64,000 nt of DNA, taken from positions 1 to 64,000 of the forward strand of contig JAQXEZ010000008.1 in NCBI GenBank assembly GCA_029250605.1, read 5' to 3'. How positions within the stretch are numbered: the stretch's first letter is position 1; each line of letters opens with the position of its first letter. The translations under genes were made by a program, and so were the position numbers. Shown piece by piece: positions 1 through 55,121 of this stretch. A model generated the notes under the pieces. It was not told where the DNA came from and made no database searches. It saw only the letters and a program-made list of their open reading frames with translations. This DNA is from Candidatus Thalassarchaeaceae archaeon. Its GTDB lineage: Archaea > Thermoplasmatota > Poseidoniia > Poseidoniales > Thalassarchaeaceae.

Positions 1-3000
1 GGAGACGCTCTGTTCGGACTCTCAACAGGATCCGATGGAGGATATGCTGCTAGAGCTGGCATCGTCTCCGACAGCGAGTCTTCCACCTTGGAACTAGACA
101 TCTACACTTCCGAGGGCTATGTTTCGTTCGACTACATGGTCTCCTCAGAAGAGAGGTACGACACACTGTCATTCAGCATCGATGGCATGGAGTACATGTC
201 CGTAAGCGGACAGGACTACCACTGGGAGTTCGTCTGCACAACTGCTGGATCGTACTCGGATCTATCTTGGGAGGATGCGTCACTGAACGATGGCTCCATC
301 CCAGGAAACTGGGTGAATGACGGAGTGGCAGATTGCGGCGACACCGACGGCGACGGAACATCCGACGACGAGGGCCTGAATAACTGGTATTCGTTGGTGG
401 AGGGAGAATTCGTAGCATGGGTCGATGAAGGAAACCACACCTTCTCGTGGACATATGCCAAGGATGGATCTGCAGACGGCGGAAACGACCGAGCATACTT
501 CGACAACATCGCGATTCCTTACGGAATGATGGGTGATGGGGAGTGCTCCGATGGAACAGACGACTGCAACACCGAGGACCTCGACGACGACAACGACGGC
601 GTAGACGACCTGAGCGACGACTGCCCCACCGACTCCGGAGAGCAGATCGACTCAGACGGCGACGGATGGTGCGACAACGCAGACGCTGACGACGACAACG
701 ACGGCACGTACGACTACAACGACGCCATGCCGCTGGACCCCAACGAGACCAGCGACTTCGACGGCGACGGGATAGGCGACAACGCCGACGACGACGACGA
801 CAACGACGGCTGCCTCGACGAGGACGACGACCTGCCATACGACGACTCCGACTGCAGCGACCTGGACGGGGACGGAGTAGGTGACAACGCCGACCCCGAC
901 GACGATGGCGACAACGTCATGGACGTCGACGACCCATTCCCGCTAGACGGGACCGCATGGGCCGACAACGACGGCGACGGCATACCAGACTACACTGGCG
1001 ACCCGCCATTCCTCGGAAACTTCGAGGGAGGGGCGATCCCGGCTGGCTGGACCACCTTCGGCAACGCTGACTGGTTCGTATGCGGAATGGGATCCTGCGG
1101 GACCACAACCGGCAACGCGATCAACGGCTCCTACATGGCAGAGTCCGGTGACATCGACAACTCGGAGACGAGCTCGCTCGAGGTCACCATGGACACATTC
1201 GCCGGCGACGTGTCATTCGACTACGAGACCTCCACAGAGGGCTTCTGGGACTACCTGAGGTTCTACGTGGACGGCAGCCTGACGCAGAGCTGGTCCGGAG
1301 TGACCTCCGGGACCTACACCACCACGGTGAGCGCAGGATGGCACAGCTTCGAGTGGATGTACTACAAGGACGGCAGCGTGAGCAGCAACGCAGACACGGT
1401 ATGGATCGACGACGTCACCCTGCCGATCTCGCAGAACCTGACCAACGATGACCCAGACGACGACAACGACGGCGTCTACGACGAGATGGACCTCTCCCCA
1501 ACGGACCCATGCGTGAGCCTGGACACCGATGGAGACGGACAGCCCGACACGGTCTTGACCGGGATCTTCGACATGAGCGGGACCGGTGACGAGAACTTCA
1601 CCGTCGACTGCGACATGACGATGTGGTACGAGGACTGGGACGACGATGGCGACGGCTGGTCAGACGAGGAGGAGTGGCTATGCGGATCCAACCACCTGGA
1701 CGGCGAAGAGTCCCCAGTGGACTTCGACCAGGACTGGATATGCGACGATCTCGACGACGACCTGGACAACGACGGTGCGCTCAACCCAGTGAACAACTGC
1801 GGTCTGTACCTGTCCTGGGATGACGAAGCGAGCTTCGTCGACTGCATCGCGGACGGATTCCACGTCGTAGACGCGGATGGCGACGGCGAGGGCTCCCTCA
1901 TGGAGCTCATGCACGCATGGGCCTTCCAGTGGGGAGGCTGTGCGGACTGCGCTGACGACGACGATGGCGATGAGGGCGATGGCGATGACATCGGCACCAC
2001 TAGCCACAACTCGTCCCACCTCGACGTCGAACTGTCCTTAGTGGACGATTTCGGAGATGTGGTGCAAACCCTCTACGGCTTCGACTGGGAGGAGATAGGT
2101 CTTGACGACAACTCCACCGAGGAGGATGAACTCGCGTTCATACTCGATAACATCGAGTACTACTTCGATTCAGAGGCAATGCAGCCGATGGAATGGTTCT
2201 TCGGCGGACTGACCGAGAACGCATCGTACGAGGTCGAATGGGGAGTAGAAGAAATCCCCGGACCGGATGGTGGCCCCACCTTCGTCTGCGGAAATGGCGA
2301 TGAGATTCCGTTCGACTACGTCAACGACGAGTATGACGACTGCGCGGACGGTTCGGACGAGCAGCAGTACAACGAGACCGGTGAGCCGATCAACTGGTTC
2401 GACTGCCACGACGGTTCCGAGATATGGGTCTACCAGGTCAATGACGGAATGGATGACTGCCCAGATGGCGAGGACGAGCACTGGGAAGGAGATGACTTCA
2501 ATCAGTTCTCGTTCAACAGCACTGGCAATGCCGAGACCATGCAGTGGGAGATGCACATCTCCAACGACACATGCCTGGTCTTCGCCGATGCCGTGATCTG
2601 GGGCTTTGACATGTCATCAGGTTCCGACGACCCAGCCAACTGGACCGCTCAAATGGGAACGTATGGGACGATAATGGCAGGACCTGCCTTTGATGCCGAC
2701 GAGGACATGGACGGCATACCCGACTGCCTAGCAGACGAGTTCGGAGACGACGGAGACGGAGACGGAGACGGCGACGGAGACGGTGACGGAGACGGTGACG
2801 GAAACGGCACCGGCGAGGAGCCGCCAGAGCCATGGCCATCCGCGGATGACTGGGACGCCTTCTACGAGAGCATCGGAGGATTCCTGCTGCAATGGGACGC
2901 TGACAACAGCTCCTCGTTCAGCTTCGACGAGTACTGGCAGTTCGTGACCGACACCAACGAAGGCTTCGACTACGAGAACCCAGGGTACACCGCGGACTCG

Positions 3001-4068
3001 ACCGAGTGGGATCAGTTCCCGTACGACCCATCCGAGCAAGTCGACACGGACATGGATGGAATCGGCGACAACGCTGACGGCGACGACGACAACGACGGCG
3101 TGCCCGACAGCCTAGACGCGTTCCCATACGACCCGACCGAGGACGCCGACCTAGACGGCGACGGAATCGGCGACAACTCTGACAACGACACCGATGGCGA
3201 CGGAATCGACAACGACGATGACGACTTCGACAGCGACCCAACGGCAACAGCCGACAACGACCAGGACGGAATAGACGACGCATCGGACTCCGATGACGAC
3301 AACGACGGCGTCCCTGACGTGGCCGACTGGGCACCTCTGGACTCGACCGAGCAGTACGACACGGACGGCGACGGGACAGGCGACAACGCCGACACCGACG
3401 ACGACGACGACGGAGTGGCAGACGGATCCGACGCATTCCCACTGGACGCCAGTGAGAGCGCAGACGCTGACATGGACGGAGTGGGCGACAACGCAGACCC
3501 CGACGATGACAACGACGGAACCCCAGATGGCCTGGATGCGTTCCCCAACGACGCGAACGAGCAGAGAGACTACGACGGCGATGGAATCGGCGACGTGGCA
3601 GACGCTGACAGGGACGAGGACGGCTACCTGAACTCCGACGACGCGTTCCCGATGAACGAGAACGAGTGGATGGACACCGACGGGGACAACGTCGGCGACA
3701 ACACCGACTCCGACATCGACGGCGACTCCGTGCTCAACGCAGACGACTGGGCACCGACAGATGCAGCTGAGTGGGACGACACCGACGGCGACGGAACCGG
3801 CGACAACGCCGACGACGACGACGACGGCGACGGCGTGCTGGACGGAGACGAGTACTCCTGCGGAACGGACTCGAAGAACGCAGCCTCAGTGCCATCTGAC
3901 TTCGATGGCGATGGGATCTGCGACGCCCTTGACGACGAGGACAACAGGGCTGACTCGATGAAGCTAGACGAACAGAAGGCGCCCGGATTCACTCCAGGCT
4001 TCGCTTCCGTGCTAGCTGTCGTTTCCCTGCTTGGCGCTGCCATGCTAGGTCGACGAAAGGACGACTGA
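1..4068 (+). CDS. Giant Asp/Gly-repeat surface protein with PGF-type C-terminal anchor (5' partial)
   Basis: The reading frame is open from base 1, so the N-terminus and signal peptide lie outside the window; about 1355 residues are visible. Two copies of a Trp/Tyr/Ser-rich beta-sandwich-like module (roughly residues 1-180 and 335-480) contain matching phrases such as SLEVTM/TLELDI and VSFDYE/VSFDYM. They are separated and followed by many DxDGDGxxDxxD units like thrombospondin type-3 calcium-binding repeats. Around bases 2280-2500 two Cys-containing segments of the form FxCxxGxEI...VNDxxDDCxDGxDE resemble LDL-receptor class A motifs. An EF-hand-like loop (DADNSSSFSFDE) lies near base 2900. 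The C-terminus has a PGFTPGF motif, a hydrophobic helix and a basic tail (GRRKDD), the layout of archaeosortase substrates. It is probably an exported, calcium-stabilised, lipid-anchored cell-surface protein. Its ligand or enzymatic role cannot be read from the sequence. Confidence 0.85.
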   Translation, partial: GDALFGLSTGSDGGYAARAGIVSDSESSTLELDIYTSEGYVSFDYMVSSEERYDTLSFSIDGMEYMSVSGQDYHWEFVCTTAGSYSDLSWEDASLNDGSIPGNWVNDGVADCGDTDGDGTSDDEGLNNWYSLVEGEFVAWVDEGNHTFSWTYAKDGSADGGNDRAYFDNIAIPYGMMGDGECSDGTDDCNTEDLDDDNDGVDDLSDDCPTDSGEQIDSDGDGWCDNADADDDNDGTYDYNDAMPLDPNETSDFDGDGIGDNADDDDDNDGCLDEDDDLPYDDSDCSDLDGDGVGDNADPDDDGDNVMDVDDPFPLDGTAWADNDGDGIPDYTGDPPFLGNFEGGAIPAGWTTFGNADWFVCGMGSCGTTTGNAINGSYMAESGDIDNSETSSLEVTMDTFAGDVSFDYETSTEGFWDYLRFYVDGSLTQSWSGVTSGTYTTTVSAGWHSFEWMYYKDGSVSSNADTVWIDDVTLPISQNLTNDDPDDDNDGVYDEMDLSPTDPCVSLDTDGDGQPDTVLTGIFDMSGTGDENFTVDCDMTMWYEDWDDDGDGWSDEEEWLCGSNHLDGEESPVDFDQDWICDDLDDDLDNDGALNPVNNCGLYLSWDDEASFVDCIADGFHVVDADGDGEGSLMELMHAWAFQWGGCADCADDDDGDEGDGDDIGTTSHNSSHLDVELSLVDDFGDVVQTLYGFDWEEIGLDDNSTEEDELAFILDNIEYYFDSEAMQPMEWFFGGLTENASYEVEWGVEEIPGPDGGPTFVCGNGDEIPFDYVNDEYDDCADGSDEQQYNETGEPINWFDCHDGSEIWVYQVNDGMDDCPDGEDEHWEGDDFNQFSFNSTGNAETMQWEMHISNDTCLVFADAVIWGFDMSSGSDDPANWTAQMGTYGTIMAGPAFDADEDMDGIPDCLADEFGDDGDGDGDGDGDGDGDGDGNGTGEEPPEPWPSADDWDAFYESIGGFLLQWDADNSSSFSFDEYWQFVTDTNEGFDYENPGYTADSTEWDQFPYDPSEQVDTDMDGIGDNADGDDDNDGVPDSLDAFPYDPTEDADLDGDGIGDNSDNDTDGDGIDNDDDDFDSDPTATADNDQDGIDDASDSDDDNDGVPDVADWAPLDSTEQYDTDGDGTGDNADTDDDDDGVADGSDAFPLDASESADADMDGVGDNADPDDDNDGTPDGLDAFPNDANEQRDYDGDGIGDVADADRDEDGYLNSDDAFPMNENEWMDTDGDNVGDNTDSDIDGDSVLNADDWAPTDAAEWDDTDGDGTGDNADDDDDGDGVLDGDEYSCGTDSKNAASVPSDFDGDGICDALDDEDNRADSMKLDEQKAPGFTPGFASVLAVVSLLGAAMLGRRKDD
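2743..2806 (+). repeat. GACGGA/GACGGC/GACGGT hexanucleotide tract
   Basis: About ten near-perfect hexamers encode an uninterrupted (Asp-Gly)n linker inside the surface protein. The third bases vary between A, C and T, so the tract is partly degenerate. It remains a likely site of slippage and length variation between strains. Confidence 0.8.
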
Positions 4069-4128: not shown

Positions 4129-4147
4129 ACAACCCAATGCTGATAAG

Positions 4148-4168
4148 TCCCCCATCGGACAAGGGGGA
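4148..4168 (+). other. Hairpin immediately before the aIF5A start
   Basis: TCCCCC (4148-4153) pairs with GGGGGA (4163-4168) around a 9-base loop, ending one base before the ATG at 4170. The 3' arm is also the only purine-rich stretch that could act as a ribosome-binding site, so the hairpin could mask it. If the mRNA is leaderless the hairpin would not be transcribed. Confidence 0.35.
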
Positions 4169-4169
4169 T

Positions 4170-4556
4170 ATGCCTGGCACGACTCGAGCCGAGATCAGGA
4201 CTCTGAAGGTAGGAAGATACGTGGCCATAGAGGAAGGCGCCTACAAGATACTAAGCATGTCCAAGTCCAAACCCGGTAAACACGGGTCTGCGAAGGCGAG
4301 GATAGAGCTCGAGGACATCTTCACCGGTCAGAAGCGATCGCACGTCGGGACTGTCACGGACACCATCCAAATCCCAATGATAGAGAAGGGGTCAGCAATA
4401 ATCACCCACATACAGGGGAACGAGGTCCATGCCATGGACAACAAGACCTACCAGACCCTCATCCTACCCGTCGAAGAGGGGATGAACCTCAAGTCCGGGG
4501 GAGAGATCCAGTGGATGGAAGCCATGGGCAGGTTCAAGATCAGCCGCGACCACTAG
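4170..4556 (+). CDS. Translation factor aIF5A
   Basis: This 128-residue protein is the archaeal homologue of eIF5A, which binds the ribosomal E site and helps peptide bond formation at difficult stretches such as polyproline. It has the two-domain layout of the family: an N-terminal SH3-like domain carrying the modification loop, then an OB-fold. The loop SKSKPGKHGSAKAR contains the lysine (K37 of this start) that deoxyhypusine synthase modifies. The start at 4170 gives MPGTTRAEIRTLKVG, matching family N-termini; an in-frame ATG at 4137 would add 11 residues with no family counterpart. The gene stands alone between the surface protein and the OPT transporter. No deoxyhypusine synthase is in the window, but a deoxyhypusine-hydroxylase-like gene lies at 53501-53977. 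Confidence 0.93.
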   Translation: MPGTTRAEIRTLKVGRYVAIEEGAYKILSMSKSKPGKHGSAKARIELEDIFTGQKRSHVGTVTDTIQIPMIEKGSAIITHIQGNEVHAMDNKTYQTLILPVEEGMNLKSGGEIQWMEAMGRFKISRDH

Positions 4557-49618: not shown

Positions 49619-50575
49619 TCAAGAGGAGTTTTTCCGGTTTATCGAGTTCCGCGCTGACTGACAAATCGCTTCGCCTGTCAAACCTACTTCTTCCATTAGC
49701 TCTGATGTGCCCCCACTTTCCCCGAATCTGTCCCTTACTCCAACCATCTCGAGTGGAATCGGTTTGTTTGTAGAAAGCCATTCTGATATTGCCCCTCCAA
49801 GGCCCCCAATAACCGAGTGATCCTCGGCTGATACAAAGCATCCACATCTTTCAGCTAGACTTGCCAACAATTCCACGTCTAACGGTTTGATTGTATGCAT
49901 ATCAACTACAGTGCATTCGATACCTTCTTTGGCAAGTTTAGCTGATGCTTTGCGAGCCTGCTCTACCATCACCCCACATGCGAAAATAGCAACGTCATCT
50001 CCTTCTTCTAGGACCGAACCAACTCCAATGCTCAATCCCAATTTACTTCCTTCATCATACATTCTGGGCACTTTGTTCCTTGCAGTTCTCATGTAAGAGG
50101 GGCCTCGGATGTCTAATAGCTGTACGGTCAGCTCTTCCGCTGATAAATCATCACATGGGTGAATGACTGTCATTTTGGGGATTGATCTGTAAATCGACAA
50201 ATCTTCTATTGACTGCGCGCTGCTCCCATCAGTACCTGTGTGAATACCACCATGACTTCCGCAAATGTGCACATTCAGACCGGGTCGTGCTATACCGTTG
50301 CGTACCTGCTCGAAAGCCCTCTCAGTGAAAATAGCGAATGTGCTTGCAAAGGGAACCTTTCCCGAGGATGCCATTCCAGCAGCAACTAGCATCATATTCT
50401 GCTCTGCAATTCCCATCGATATTGTCCTCTCTGGGAACTTTTCACGGAAATGGCATGATTTTGTCGATTTCCCCAAATCCGCCTCTAATACTACTACACG
50501 TGGATCATCCGAGAGTCTGAGAAGTGCCTTCCCATATCCGTCACGCGAGGCCCCTCCGCTAGAGGGGGCGCTCAT
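49619..50575 (-). CDS. Transketolase C-terminal subunit
   Basis: This 318-residue protein carries the pyrimidine-binding domain (GIAEQNMMLVAAGMASSGK, with the Glu that activates thiamine diphosphate). The transketolase C-terminal domain includes AEDHSVIGGLGGAISEWL. With the next gene it makes a split transketolase, which moves two-carbon units in the pentose phosphate pathway. Its start overlaps the N-terminal subunit stop by four bases. Confidence 0.93.
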   Translation of the reverse strand: MSAPSSGGASRDGYGKALLRLSDDPRVVVLEADLGKSTKSCHFREKFPERTISMGIAEQNMMLVAAGMASSGKVPFASTFAIFTERAFEQVRNGIARPGLNVHICGSHGGIHTGTDGSSAQSIEDLSIYRSIPKMTVIHPCDDLSAEELTVQLLDIRGPSYMRTARNKVPRMYDEGSKLGLSIGVGSVLEEGDDVAIFACGVMVEQARKASAKLAKEGIECTVVDMHTIKPLDVELLASLAERCGCFVSAEDHSVIGGLGGAISEWLSTNKPIPLEMVGVRDRFGESGGTSELMEEVGLTGEAICQSARNSINRKNSS

Positions 50576-51399
50576 GATAATTCCTCCAGGGCGATAGCCA
50601 ACTGCTCATTGTCGGGGGCCTTTCCATGGAATTCGGGATTGTCCTCCATGTAGGAAACACCCCTTCCCTTAGTAGTGTTTGCAATAATTGCAATGGGCCC
50701 CAATTCAGAAGTTTCTGTCCAATGTAAAACCTCAACTAGCTCAGCCATGTTATGCCCGTCCACTTCTCGAACATTCCAACCAAAAGACTCGAATTTCGCA
50801 CCTATGTCTCCAATCTCCATCTGGGATTCCATGAAGTCATCATTCTGTATTCTGTTTCTATCAACAATCACCCGCAGATTATTCGCATTGTGATAATTTG
50901 CCGCCATCACAGCCTCCCAGACCTGACCTTCTTGTGTTTCACCATCGCCGAGCATGACCCAGATGCGCCTTTCGCTGGAATCCATTCTGGCTGATAACGC
51001 GCAACCTAGTCCGAACGACAGGCCCATTCCAAGACTACCGGCGGAAAAATCGACTCCATCTGTCCAATTCATATCTACGTGACCCTGACAAACAGAGCCC
51101 AGGGTCCTGAATCCCATTAGATCATTTTCCTCAAGAACACCCATCTGGTGTAGGATTGCATACATCGCAGGGCTTGCATGACCCTTACTCATCACAAACC
51201 TATCCCGATCATCCCAGTTTGGGTTGCTCGTGTCGAACCTTAGGCTGGTTCCATATAGTGCCACCATGCAGTCAATGGCTGATAGTGACCCACCGGGATG
51301 GCCTGCCCCTGCTGCATGAGTCATCTTAACAATATCAATTCTGCATTGTCTTGCCATTTCCTCTAGTTCCGCAATTCTGTCTTGCGCTGCCTCGCCCAC
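50572..51399 (-). CDS. Transketolase N-terminal subunit
   Basis: This 275-residue protein is the thiamine-diphosphate pyrophosphate-binding half of transketolase. The GDGETQEGQVWEAVMAANYHNANNL stretch is the GDG...N cofactor motif, and GHPGGSLSAIDCMVALYG and SKGHASPAMYAIL match family substrate-site blocks. Split transketolases are common in archaea. This gene lies upstream of the C-terminal half with an ATGA overlap. Confidence 0.93.
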   Translation of the reverse strand: MGEAAQDRIAELEEMARQCRIDIVKMTHAAGAGHPGGSLSAIDCMVALYGTSLRFDTSNPNWDDRDRFVMSKGHASPAMYAILHQMGVLEENDLMGFRTLGSVCQGHVDMNWTDGVDFSAGSLGMGLSFGLGCALSARMDSSERRIWVMLGDGETQEGQVWEAVMAANYHNANNLRVIVDRNRIQNDDFMESQMEIGDIGAKFESFGWNVREVDGHNMAELVEVLHWTETSELGPIAIIANTTKGRGVSYMEDNPEFHGKAPDNEQLAIALEELS

Positions 51400-51502: not shown

Positions 51503-52702
51503 ATGCTACTGGAATCCATGTTAGAGAAAGATTGGAGGGCCGATCTGTCCAAAATTCCTATTCCAATTTCTGTGAAAAACGACACCTTGCTCTCACTTTC
51601 ACTGGAAACTCTAATCGAAGGGGGAAGGATTCCTAAGGAAATCGGTTCCGATTTGCACAGGAATTCCAATCTCCCTGGCCTTACTGCACTAGCAAGTATG
51701 ATCAAGCACTCCAGATTTGGAAATCATGTATTCTTTAACGAAAATCTACACGTAAATACTACGAATGTCTGTACTCTAGCTTGCCGTTTCTGCGCCTTCA
51801 GAAAGGGTTCACGGCATAATGAAGCATATTCACTTTCAGCAGAGGAGTTTGTCTCTAGGATTGAGCCATATCGTGGATTAATTGATGAGGTCCACGCTGT
51901 AGGTGGCCTGCATCCCGAATGGACCATAGAGAATTACTCGGAGATTTACGAGATGACAAAGACAAACTTCCCTGAAATTAGCATCAAGTCACTGACTGCC
52001 GTAGAAGTGAAGCACATAGCATCTAGATCGCAACTTTCGATAAAGGAGACTCTCAAGTCTCTGAAAAAATCTGGCCTAAATTCTCTGCCGGGCGGTGGGG
52101 CCGAAATTTTGGTAGACTCAATTAGAGATCGGATATGCATGGGGAAGGAGAAGTCATCGGAATACTTGGAAATACATGCGATTGCTCACGAACTAGGAAT
52201 CCCTACAAATTGTACAATGCTATTCGGAACCATAGAGACTATCGAGGATAGAATGACACACTTCGAATTGCTCAGAGATCAGCAGGACTCATCTGGCGGT
52301 TTCCAGTGCTTCGTCCCTTATCCTTTCCTGGAGGATAATACCCGACTCCCAGAAGCCAAGCTAGCATCAGGTGAGGAGATAATCAGAGTAATTGCTTTGT
52401 CTCGAATAATGTTAGATAACATTCCACACATCAAGGCTTACAGGATGAACATCGGTGATCATCTTGCTTCAATAGCAATCAATTCGGGCGCCGATGATAT
52501 AGATGGTACAGTCGGTCATGAGGAGATAATGCACGTAGCTGGGAGTACCACAAGTGTCGATTATGACAGTGCTAAACTAGCCCGACTAATCGAATCGGCC
52601 GGTCAAGAACCTGTAAAGAGGGATTCTACTTACGAACGATTCGAATCGATTGATTCCGAACTAATGAGCGAAATATTGGTTCTGCCAATAGTAGGTCAGT
52701 GA
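51503..52702 (+). CDS. mqnE: Aminofutalosine synthase MqnE (radical SAM)
   Basis: MqnE joins SAM to 3-[(1-carboxyvinyl)oxy]benzoate in the futalosine route to menaquinone. The 399-residue product has the radical-SAM cluster CTLACRFC (Cx3Cx2C), VHAVGGLHPEWTIENY and LPGGGAEILVDSIRDRICMGK. It also has NCTMLFGTIETIEDRMTHFELLRDQQ, all typical of the MqnE/MqnC/CofH group; the GGLHP and TMLFGTIE wording favours MqnE. It is followed after four bases by mqnA, whose product makes its substrate. The related dehypoxanthine futalosine cyclase (MqnC) is the main alternative. Confidence 0.85.
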   Translation: MLLESMLEKDWRADLSKIPIPISVKNDTLLSLSLETLIEGGRIPKEIGSDLHRNSNLPGLTALASMIKHSRFGNHVFFNENLHVNTTNVCTLACRFCAFRKGSRHNEAYSLSAEEFVSRIEPYRGLIDEVHAVGGLHPEWTIENYSEIYEMTKTNFPEISIKSLTAVEVKHIASRSQLSIKETLKSLKKSGLNSLPGGGAEILVDSIRDRICMGKEKSSEYLEIHAIAHELGIPTNCTMLFGTIETIEDRMTHFELLRDQQDSSGGFQCFVPYPFLEDNTRLPEAKLASGEEIIRVIALSRIMLDNIPHIKAYRMNIGDHLASIAINSGADDIDGTVGHEEIMHVAGSTTSVDYDSAKLARLIESAGQEPVKRDSTYERFESIDSELMSEILVLPIVGQ

Positions 52703-52706
52703 CATA

Positions 52707-53504
52707 ATGTCTTGGTCGAGGACTCTTGGCAGGGTTTCATTCATCAATTGTGATCCAATTTTCCATTCAATTGGCCCGAATTGGAATATTCTGGCTGCAC
52801 CACCTTCATGGCTAACGGGACATCTTCTTAGGAGGGATTGCATAACTGCCCCCATACCAGCAGCCGACTATGCAATAAATTGCAATGAACTAAATCTATT
52901 ACGTGACATAGGAATAGTTGGCAGGGAGTCTGTTGGTTCCGTCATTCTTTTCGGCAACAGATCCCTTGAGTCAATGCGTGACATCGCATTACCATCTGAC
53001 TCATCAACATCAAACATGCTCATGAAGTGGATTCTGGGACAGAGGGGCTTAGACCCAAAATTGGTTCCAATGGGCCCAGACATAGAAACGATGCTGGATG
53101 AATGTGATGGAGCGCTAATTATCGGGGACCGGGCATTATCAGCAGCACTCAGAAACCCCGAACTTGTTAGGATGGATTTGGGAAGGGAGTGGACAAACAT
53201 TACCGGGCTTCCAATGGTCTTTGGAGTATTCGCTGCAAGACACGACTCTTCTCCGAGTATTGTCGATGAAGCAAGGGAATCAATGCTCAGAAGCTACGAT
53301 GGGTTCCTGATTGATGATGATACAAGGGGTGATGTAGTTTCCATTGCGTCGCAGAAAATTGACCTCCCCTTGGACAGAATTGGCAAATACTTCGAATATG
53401 AGGTTTCGAATATTCTTGACAAATCCTCCATCGAAGGGCTGAGAGTTTTCCTCGACGAAGTGTGCAGGATGGATTCGCAACCACGTTGGTTCGAATCTAC
53501 TTAA
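52707..53504 (+). CDS. mqnA: Chorismate dehydratase MqnA
   Basis: MqnA dehydrates chorismate to 3-[(1-carboxyvinyl)oxy]benzoate, the first step of the futalosine pathway. The 265-residue product begins LGRVSFINCDPIF and has PIPAADYAIN, GSVILFG, DSSTSNMLMKWIL, GALIIGDRAL and DLGREWTNITGLPMVFGVF, the family order. It follows mqnE by four bases and overlaps the 3' end of the convergent HEAT-repeat gene by four bases. Confidence 0.9.
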   Translation: MSWSRTLGRVSFINCDPIFHSIGPNWNILAAPPSWLTGHLLRRDCITAPIPAADYAINCNELNLLRDIGIVGRESVGSVILFGNRSLESMRDIALPSDSSTSNMLMKWILGQRGLDPKLVPMGPDIETMLDECDGALIIGDRALSAALRNPELVRMDLGREWTNITGLPMVFGVFAARHDSSPSIVDEARESMLRSYDGFLIDDDTRGDVVSIASQKIDLPLDRIGKYFEYEVSNILDKSSIEGLRVFLDEVCRMDSQPRWFEST

Positions 53505-53977
53505 TCCGTGTAATCTAACCTATCGCTAGAAACCCAATTTAGTAAATCAATTGCCACTTCGCATGATTCCGCTACTACAATCTCATCGTCCATTGCAAAT
53601 TTCTCCAATGTCGACATTGCAATTCTGTTTCCAATGGCACCTAGAGCCTCAGCAGCCTCGTGCCTGACCATGACATCCTCTCCCATATCCTCCAATCGGC
53701 TAATCAGATGTGGGACTGCATGATCATCTTGCATCTGCCCCAGCACATATGCAACTTCATGCTTCAATAGTGCCGATGAAGAGTCAAAGGCAGCAGCCAA
53801 TGAGTCAACAGCATCCTTTCCCCCGATGTTCCTTAGAGCAAACAGGGCCCTCATTCGTTGGAACATTCGCTCTTCTTCATCACAGAGACTTGCCCTAAGG
53901 TCTACTACAGCCAAACTTTCGTTGGCCGGTGCGGGGTCAACTGAACCGAACTCGCTTACGTCTGGCCTTTCTGTCAT
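53501..53977 (-). CDS. Half-size deoxyhypusine hydroxylase-like HEAT-repeat protein
   Basis: This 158-residue protein consists of E-Z type HEAT repeats and resembles the C-terminal half of eukaryotic deoxyhypusine hydroxylase (DOHH), the diiron enzyme that finishes hypusine on eIF5A. It keeps a SVDPAPA segment near residue 12, LFALRNIGG, SALLKHEVAYVLGQMQ with His73-Glu74, MVRHEAAEALGAIG with His106-Glu107, and VVAESCEVAIDLL. The two HE pairs are 33 residues apart, as in each half of human DOHH as I recall it. Eukaryotic DOHH has four HE pairs from an internal duplication; this protein has two, so a diiron site would require a homodimer. It overlaps mqnD by four bases (ATGA). A structural HEAT protein of the PBS-lyase type is the alternative. 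Confidence 0.75.
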   Translation of the reverse strand: MTERPDVSEFGSVDPAPANESLAVVDLRASLCDEEERMFQRMRALFALRNIGGKDAVDSLAAAFDSSSALLKHEVAYVLGQMQDDHAVPHLISRLEDMGEDVMVRHEAAEALGAIGNRIAMSTLEKFAMDDEIVVAESCEVAIDLLNWVSSDRLDYTD

Positions 53978-54837
53978 TGTTCTTCAGCTCCAATGAACTC
54001 CATTCCTCTCGCATCGAAGGTACTTCTGACTAGGCCAACTTCCTGACCTCTTTCAAGGAATAACCTAACTGCCTCACGTCCCTCACGCCCATAGTCAATC
54101 GTTCGATCGTTCACATACATTCTGACAAACTCCTCGTTTGTATCCTCATCGATTCCTCTGCCCCACTTAATTGCATCTTGCAGAGCGAGTTCAGGATTGG
54201 AGAGGGAATACTCAATACTCATCTTGATATCATTAGAAATCTTCTTGCACGTTTCTTCTCCGAGATCCCTTCTCACAACATTCCCCCCAAGTGGTAATGG
54301 GAGGCCTGTGGTGCTATTCCACCAAACTCCAAGGTTGATGATCATGAACGCGCCTTCATTGGACCACGTTAGCTGGCCTTCATGAATTATCACTCCTGCA
54401 TCGTACTCACCGCTCAGAACACCAGGTTGTATTCTATCAAAAGGCACTTCCTTTACTTGGACATCACCCAATGCAAGAACAAGTGATAAGTAGGAACTTG
54501 TGCTCTTCCCGGGAACAGCGATCACCCTACTCTTTGCATCCTCGATGGTCATTTCTCTATTAGAAATTAGTATTGGCCCATAACCCTCTCCCATCGAAGC
54601 TCCACAATTCATCAGAGCGTACTCTTTGGATATCTTGGGGTACGAGTGTATACTTACAGCCGAAACCTCGAAGTGACCCTGTTGCGCTTCTTGATTAAGG
54701 GTATCAATGTCCACCAATACGTGCTCATATTTCCTCCCAGGGGTATCAATGAGGCCCTGAGTCAGGGCATGGAACATGAAAGCATCATCAGGGTCCGGCG
54801 AATGCCCTACTCGAATCGTCAGCACATCATCAACCAT
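53974..54837 (-). CDS. mqnD: 1,4-dihydroxy-6-naphthoate synthase MqnD
   Basis: MqnD converts cyclic dehypoxanthine futalosine to 1,4-dihydroxy-6-naphthoate in menaquinone synthesis. The 287-residue periplasmic-binding-protein-like enzyme has IRVGHSPDPDDAFMFHAL, EVSAVSIHSYPKI, GEGYGPILIS, PGKSTSSYLSLVLAL, YDAGVIIHEGQLTW and GLPLPLGGNVVRRDL, all family blocks. It is encoded opposite mqnE-mqnA and upstream of the DOHH-like gene. Confidence 0.92.
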   Translation of the reverse strand: MVDDVLTIRVGHSPDPDDAFMFHALTQGLIDTPGRKYEHVLVDIDTLNQEAQQGHFEVSAVSIHSYPKISKEYALMNCGASMGEGYGPILISNREMTIEDAKSRVIAVPGKSTSSYLSLVLALGDVQVKEVPFDRIQPGVLSGEYDAGVIIHEGQLTWSNEGAFMIINLGVWWNSTTGLPLPLGGNVVRRDLGEETCKKISNDIKMSIEYSLSNPELALQDAIKWGRGIDEDTNEEFVRMYVNDRTIDYGREGREAVRLFLERGQEVGLVRSTFDARGMEFIGAEEQ

Positions 54838-54902
54838 TATTCAATGCGCGAAGTTTTGAGTTGAAATGGGTTTTCGTCTACACCTCTCCTCGGAATGATG
54901 AA

Positions 54903-55121
54903 ATGGCCACCTCCAAAGGGACAAACATGGTCGACCCCTCCAAGCTGTCTACAGCATCCGGACAACTGGGGCCAGTCTGTGCAATAACCGGCAAGCCCCT
55001 CAAGTTCTCTGAGGCAATTGTTCTAGACAACGAGTATGTTTGTTGGGAGGCATATATCGAAGCAACCGGGGCTTCTCCATCTACCGATGGTAAGGAAGTT
55101 GGCGGTCTAAACCTGGGCTGA
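54903..55121 (+). CDS. Small protein of unknown function with CxxTG motif
   Basis: This 72-residue protein is not recognised. It contains PVCAITGKPLKFSEAIVLDN followed by EYVCWEAYIEA: a Cys-x-x-Thr-Gly pair and a second Cys about 20 residues on, somewhat like a reduced metal-binding knuckle. The ATG at 54903 gives MATSKGTNMVDPS; a TTG at 54861 in frame would add 14 residues. It precedes priS by 36 bases. Confidence 0.5.
   Translation: MATSKGTNMVDPSKLSTASGQLGPVCAITGKPLKFSEAIVLDNEYVCWEAYIEATGASPSTDGKEVGGLNLG

Follow-up and report, generated by a model that had tools for sequence, protein, structure and literature searches.

Human deoxyhypusine hydroxylase (DOHH) is built from eight HEAT repeats arranged as a symmetrical dyad (PMC11203672), in which mutagenesis has shown that the HE residues anchor a diiron site and, together with two glycines printed as G65 and G214, bind the deoxyhypusine side chain of the one protein on which the enzyme acts (PMC9117371). 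The emergence of an oxygenase from a repeat protein through the pairing of halves has been discussed for DOHH, with no known intermediate (PMC9040561). Archaea possess deoxyhypusine synthase, DOHH has not been identified in them, and their pathway was called unsolved in 2016, 2018 and 2020 (PMC5178350, PMC6105217, PMC7773846); no report of an archaeal DOHH was found in open-access full text to August 2026. Sulfolobus, which has archaeal aIF5A and deoxyhypusine synthase in common with the organism studied here, is reported to make hypusine with an unknown hydroxylase as its second enzyme and with no DOHH-like protein found (PMC6105217), and archaea thus have at least one other route. The hypusine record of the Thermoplasmales is contradictory, deoxyhypusine with little or no hypusine having been reported for the group (PMC5178350) and T. 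acidophilum being listed as hypusine-containing (PMC9599864).

The window analyzed here, a whole stretch of 64,000 nucleotides from a Candidatus Thalassarchaeaceae archaeon, encodes a 158-residue protein (ORF with an ATG start at 53501..53977, minus strand) that shares with eukaryotic DOHH (human, 4D4Z; yeast, Lia1) the HEAT hairpin fold, the metal- and substrate-binding residues and the SVDPAP and ESCEVA elements. Whereas the eukaryotic enzyme carries eight hairpins and four HE pairs and builds its diiron site within a single chain, the protein of the archaeal host has four hairpins and two pairs and would have to pair with another chain. We called it a half-size variant of DOHH (half-DOHH) because it falls short of the eight repeats and four HE pairs per chain that define the canonical enzyme. 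It is probably a homodimeric diiron hydroxylase of a half-length DOHH lineage, which would convert deoxyhypusine to hypusine on aIF5A. A half-size DOHH-like protein occurs in many marine archaea that respire oxygen, and a candidate from such abundant organisms makes the archaeal DOHH question testable with one small gene.

Homology, fold and conserved residues

A sequence-only reading of the window had taken the protein for a half-size DOHH homologue, and sequence, profile and fold all favored this assignment over a generic PBS-lyase HEAT protein. A sequence search against all solved structures returned human DOHH as the top match, with two separate matches to its N half (112 bits) and its C half (123 bits), whereas the printed stretches of generic alphaRep HEAT designs reached at most about 44 bits each, their totals being high only through the summing of many repeats; the resemblance to DOHH thus goes far beyond chance. 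Human DOHH was also the top match for a profile of 34 homologues and for two distant relatives from other families. The PBS-lyase HEAT proteins NblB and CpcE belong to the same repeat superfamily, and the window protein matched the broad Pfam families HEAT_PBS (above its cut-off) and HEAT_2; however, its scores with the NCBIfam models of NblB (40 bits; cut-off, 300) and CpcE (34 bits; cut-off, 330) were far too low, and the profile search that had been proposed as a check thus came out on the side of DOHH. Within the Thermoplasmatota, a broader profile gave true members scores of 185 bits or higher and generic HEAT proteins scores no higher than 55 bits, and in six of the generic HEAT proteins from this phylum HE motifs were absent altogether, in contrast to half-DOHH.

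The monomer, modeled with AF2 from 34 sequences (pLDDT, 89; pTM, 0.82), is predicted to form eight helices arranged as four hairpins, of which the second and the third each carry an HE pair in their second helix; pLDDT is low at the N terminus. In Foldseek, human DOHH (4D4Z) ranked first (E, 7.4e-11; TM-score, 0.87 by query length; 48% identity by structure alignment), followed by designed HEAT proteins (E, 4.5e-5). Homology of the window protein to DOHH is secure, and identity as a generic HEAT protein was rejected on the low scores of generic stretches, the NblB and CpcE scores below cut-off and the invariance of the ligands. None of the outcomes named beforehand as fatal to the assignment, such as best matches to generic HEAT proteins or HE residues that vary among close relatives, came true where they were open to testing.

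The two HE motifs lie 33 residues apart, the same spacing as between human H56 and H89 and between H207 and H240. His73-Glu74 (53756..53761, minus strand), the predicted metal and substrate ligands, corresponds to human H56-E57 and H207-E208, and His106-Glu107 (53657..53662, minus strand), the predicted metal ligands, to H89-E90 and H240-E241. Gly80 is the equivalent of human G214, to which G63 of the human N half aligns in the sequence used here. Among 65 full-length Poseidoniales homologues, H73, E74, G80, H106 and E107 are invariant (65/65), and both HE pairs also occur in nine distant members, so that the HE residues are indeed kept in relatives. The SVDPAP segment (residues 12-17; 53927..53944, minus strand), the counterpart of which opens the C-terminal half of human DOHH, is poorly ordered in the monomer model; S12, D14, P15, A16 and P17 are conserved in 100% and V13 in 98% of the same homologues. 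The ESCEVA element (residues 137-142; 53552..53569, minus strand), placed in the last helix as in the human C half, is present in 100% of the 65. The human C half contains SVDPAPP and VVRESCEVA, matching SVDPAPA and VVAESCEVA in the window protein, whereas the human N half is without the SVDPAP segment and has EVAETCQLA in place of the ESCEVA-type element. All the motifs listed in the sequence-only reading are therefore present in the protein, and its view of them as features of the C-terminal half of DOHH stood for SVDPAPA and VVAESCEVA and fell for the HE pairs, which are found in both human halves.

Genomic setting, spread and losses

The start of the half-DOHH gene overlaps by 4 bp an mqnD-like gene (VitK2_biosynth, PF02621, E 9.7e-70; 53974..54837, minus strand), which was not judged part of its function, and its 3′ end abuts the end of a convergent mqnA-like gene (VitK2_biosynth, PF02621, E 1.8e-43; 52707..53504, plus strand), beyond which lies an mqnC/CofH-type radical SAM gene (51503-52702). 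The aIF5A gene, previously reported from the same window and encoding the presumed substrate, was confirmed as an ORF with the SKPGKHG hypusine loop (4170..4556, plus strand; PF21485, E 1.9e-13), the lysine to be modified in the GKHG loop being encoded at 4278-4280. The full open frame of this gene runs from 4137 to 4556, and the ATG at 4170 appears a likelier start than the frame start at 4137, because relatives align from about there. The shared window is weak evidence of a functional tie, since about 49 kb separates aIF5A from half-DOHH, the immediate neighbors of which are menaquinone genes.

Other features of the window are of separate interest. An 86-residue ORF with no Pfam match (54861-55121, plus strand) is flanked by mqnD and the gene for the small subunit of primase, a placement kept across the Poseidoniales. 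Two adjacent ORFs (49619-51399, minus strand), assigned by eye and not by profile, resemble the halves of transketolase as separate genes, in an order kept in relatives, and a 1326-residue ORF (88-4068, plus strand) with many Asp-repeat motifs and a hydrophobic C-terminal segment is likely a surface protein.

A species-level scan, with one genome per species and exact peptide patterns taken from the query, recovered 67 loci from close relatives only, titled Poseidoniales or marine group II with a few labeled only Euryarchaeota or Thermoplasmatota. By profile, among 390 Thermoplasmatota genomes, the majority of the Poseidoniales proved to carry the gene, as did nine genomes belonging to other families, which represent two further classes and six families; a broader profile, applied to the two classes to which two of the distant carriers belong, was positive in 5 of 7 genomes of one and 4 of 80 of the other. 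Identity to the window protein ranges from 41 to 59% among the distant members, which retain the two HE pairs at a spacing of 32 (in several) or 33 residues and, in nearly all cases, have a DPAP-like N terminus. All are half-size by match extent, and the longer open frames that surround some of them in G+C-rich DNA were judged to be spurious extensions; a tandem form was not seen among the 390 genomes. Outside the Poseidoniales, genomic context varies from locus to locus, as for a stand-alone enzyme. Two different half-DOHH copies (L027 and L031) came from one assembly (SAT218), and several sampled genomes had a copy on each of two contigs, perhaps because strains were mixed. A viral or plasmid gene was rejected as an identity: relatives were found neither in phages or plasmids with the window protein nor in viral contigs with either a profile or human DOHH as the query, and the human protein gave only weak HEAT matches (about 30% identity) in four plasmids.

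The association with oxygen respiration was observed outside the Poseidoniales, where COX1 (heme-copper oxidase) occurred in all nine carriers versus 75 of 263 genomes (p 9e-6; counts from printed tables); its weight was lowered because the carriers share ancestry, which was considered only as family counts (nine carriers, six families). In the 80-genome class that includes G063, the four genomes with COX1 were also the four carriers; the class of G022 contained two COX1 genomes without half-DOHH, and many such genomes occurred in other classes. Oxygen respiration looks necessary for having half-DOHH and, since many COX1 genomes are without the gene, not sufficient. Deoxyhypusine synthase was present in all 22 genomes tested and aIF5A in 21 of them, with GKHG in each of the 20 for which the N-terminal part was recovered, in carriers and non-carriers alike. 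In the stretches fetched at distant carrier loci, half-DOHH was not found beside aIF5A. The Poseidoniales also possess a second, weaker gene of the DHS family (G000:C20:23187-24086, L070, and equivalents), probably the homospermidine synthase SpeY, which has been described in this order (PMC10407285), and several distant carriers have two strong DHS copies.

In several Poseidoniales, the half-DOHH gene is missing between intact neighbors. It has been excised or cut to a stub of ~20 codons beside intact mqnD in three genomes (G078, G179 and G130) and survives as a decayed remnant beside intact mqnD in four others (G092, G200, G206 and G106); the cut-down or decayed loci are L142, L147, L150, L179, L180, L181 and L112. 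These losses were apparently independent of one another. Because several Poseidoniales lost half-DOHH and retained aIF5A, deoxyhypusine synthase and COX1, the gene is dispensable, and DOHH is likewise not needed for the survival of yeast (PMC5178350). The repeated losses provide genomes for matched comparisons between presence and absence of the enzyme.

Proposed reaction and competing functions

The homology to DOHH, the half length, the conserved ligands, the modeled monomer fold and the co-occurrence with aIF5A, with deoxyhypusine synthase and, beyond the Poseidoniales, with oxygen respiration are shown by the present analysis; that half-DOHH dimerizes, binds iron and hydroxylates aIF5A is inferred. 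The human enzyme being a symmetrical dyad, its two halves could in principle be two chains. Each archaeal chain would contribute four HEAT hairpins and one ligand set (His73, His106 and Glu107, with Glu74 near the substrate), and two identical chains would pair face to face, like the two halves inside one eukaryotic DOHH chain, holding two irons between them. A search of the genome found no HEAT_PBS protein besides half-DOHH, which makes the same chain the obvious partner. Deoxyhypusine synthase would first place deoxyhypusine on the GKHG-loop lysine of aIF5A, after which the diiron site would activate O2 and hydroxylate this residue to hypusine. Half-DOHH would then offer a natural test of the transition from repeat protein to oxygenase via paired halves.

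There is a small chance that the protein, while still a HEAT-type diiron oxygenase from the DOHH lineage and a homodimer, acts on another protein or on a small molecule and not on aIF5A. Such a role would fit the loss of the gene where aIF5A and deoxyhypusine synthase stay, as well as the lack of linkage to aIF5A in the stretches fetched from distant carriers; on the other hand, human DOHH binds the side chain of deoxyhypusine through Glu residues and a glycine that are invariant here, and about half of the residues match human DOHH, an enzyme of one protein (PMC9117371). A non-catalytic HEAT-repeat binding protein with a chance likeness to DOHH is very improbable, given that both DOHH halves score far above generic HEAT stretches, that the ligand residues never vary and that a gap of 185 versus 55 bits divides members from generic HEAT proteins in the phylum. 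What speaks for it are the broad HEAT_PBS and HEAT_2 matches and the general tendency of HEAT proteins to be non-enzymes.

An accessory or hydroxylating enzyme of menaquinone synthesis (futalosine pathway), as might be read from the place between mqnD and mqnA, has the least claim to belief: the gene overlaps or adjoins mqnD in the Poseidoniales, and the association with mqnD is positive outside the order too (p 0.007; both track aerobic lineages), but mqnA/D occurs without half-DOHH in 38 non-Poseidoniales genomes, no mqnA/D match was obtained in four distant carriers, including a genome that is 92% complete, distant genomes with both have them on separate contigs, and half-DOHH is deleted, reduced to a stub or decayed beside intact mqnD in seven genomes. 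Adjacency to mqnD thus holds only in the Poseidoniales, and a menaquinone gene role was rejected on the inconstant co-occurrence with mqnA/mqnD and on these deletions.

Origin of the half-length form

Half-DOHH as a homodimeric hydroxylase could be the unduplicated ancestor of DOHH or a fragment acquired from a eukaryote. The N and C halves of human DOHH are 37% identical to each other, and the archaeal proteins average 42% identity to the N half and 46% to the C half. Similar identity to both halves, above that between them, fits a sequence outside the duplication, and this equal similarity, together with the deep archaeal spread, leads us to lean toward the unduplicated ancestor. We tentatively propose, as a possibility of somewhat less than even weight, that half-DOHH represents the unduplicated form and that the gene of an archaeal homodimer was duplicated and fused to give eukaryotic DOHH; if true, the last hypusine step in eukaryotes would trace to an oxygen-using archaeal enzyme.

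A tree of 30 rows and 153 columns, with human DOHH as the one eukaryotic representative and with long branches that include the outgroup, joined the human and archaeal halves against the generic HEAT proteins (support, 89/93), and none of four tested groupings was rejected (p-AU, 0.18 to 0.43). It seems unlikely that an archaeon acquired a C-terminal DOHH half from a eukaryote and that this half then spread in the Thermoplasmatota. The sharing of SVDPAP and ESCEVA with the human C half only fits such a fragment, and a grouping of the archaeal halves with the human C half, leaving the N half outside, survived the test (p-AU, 0.26); against it, the human halves as a pair equally survived (p-AU, 0.18), the archaeal proteins resemble the N and C halves alike and more closely than these resemble each other, and the archaeal members, at about 41-47% identity, are as distant from one another as from the human halves.
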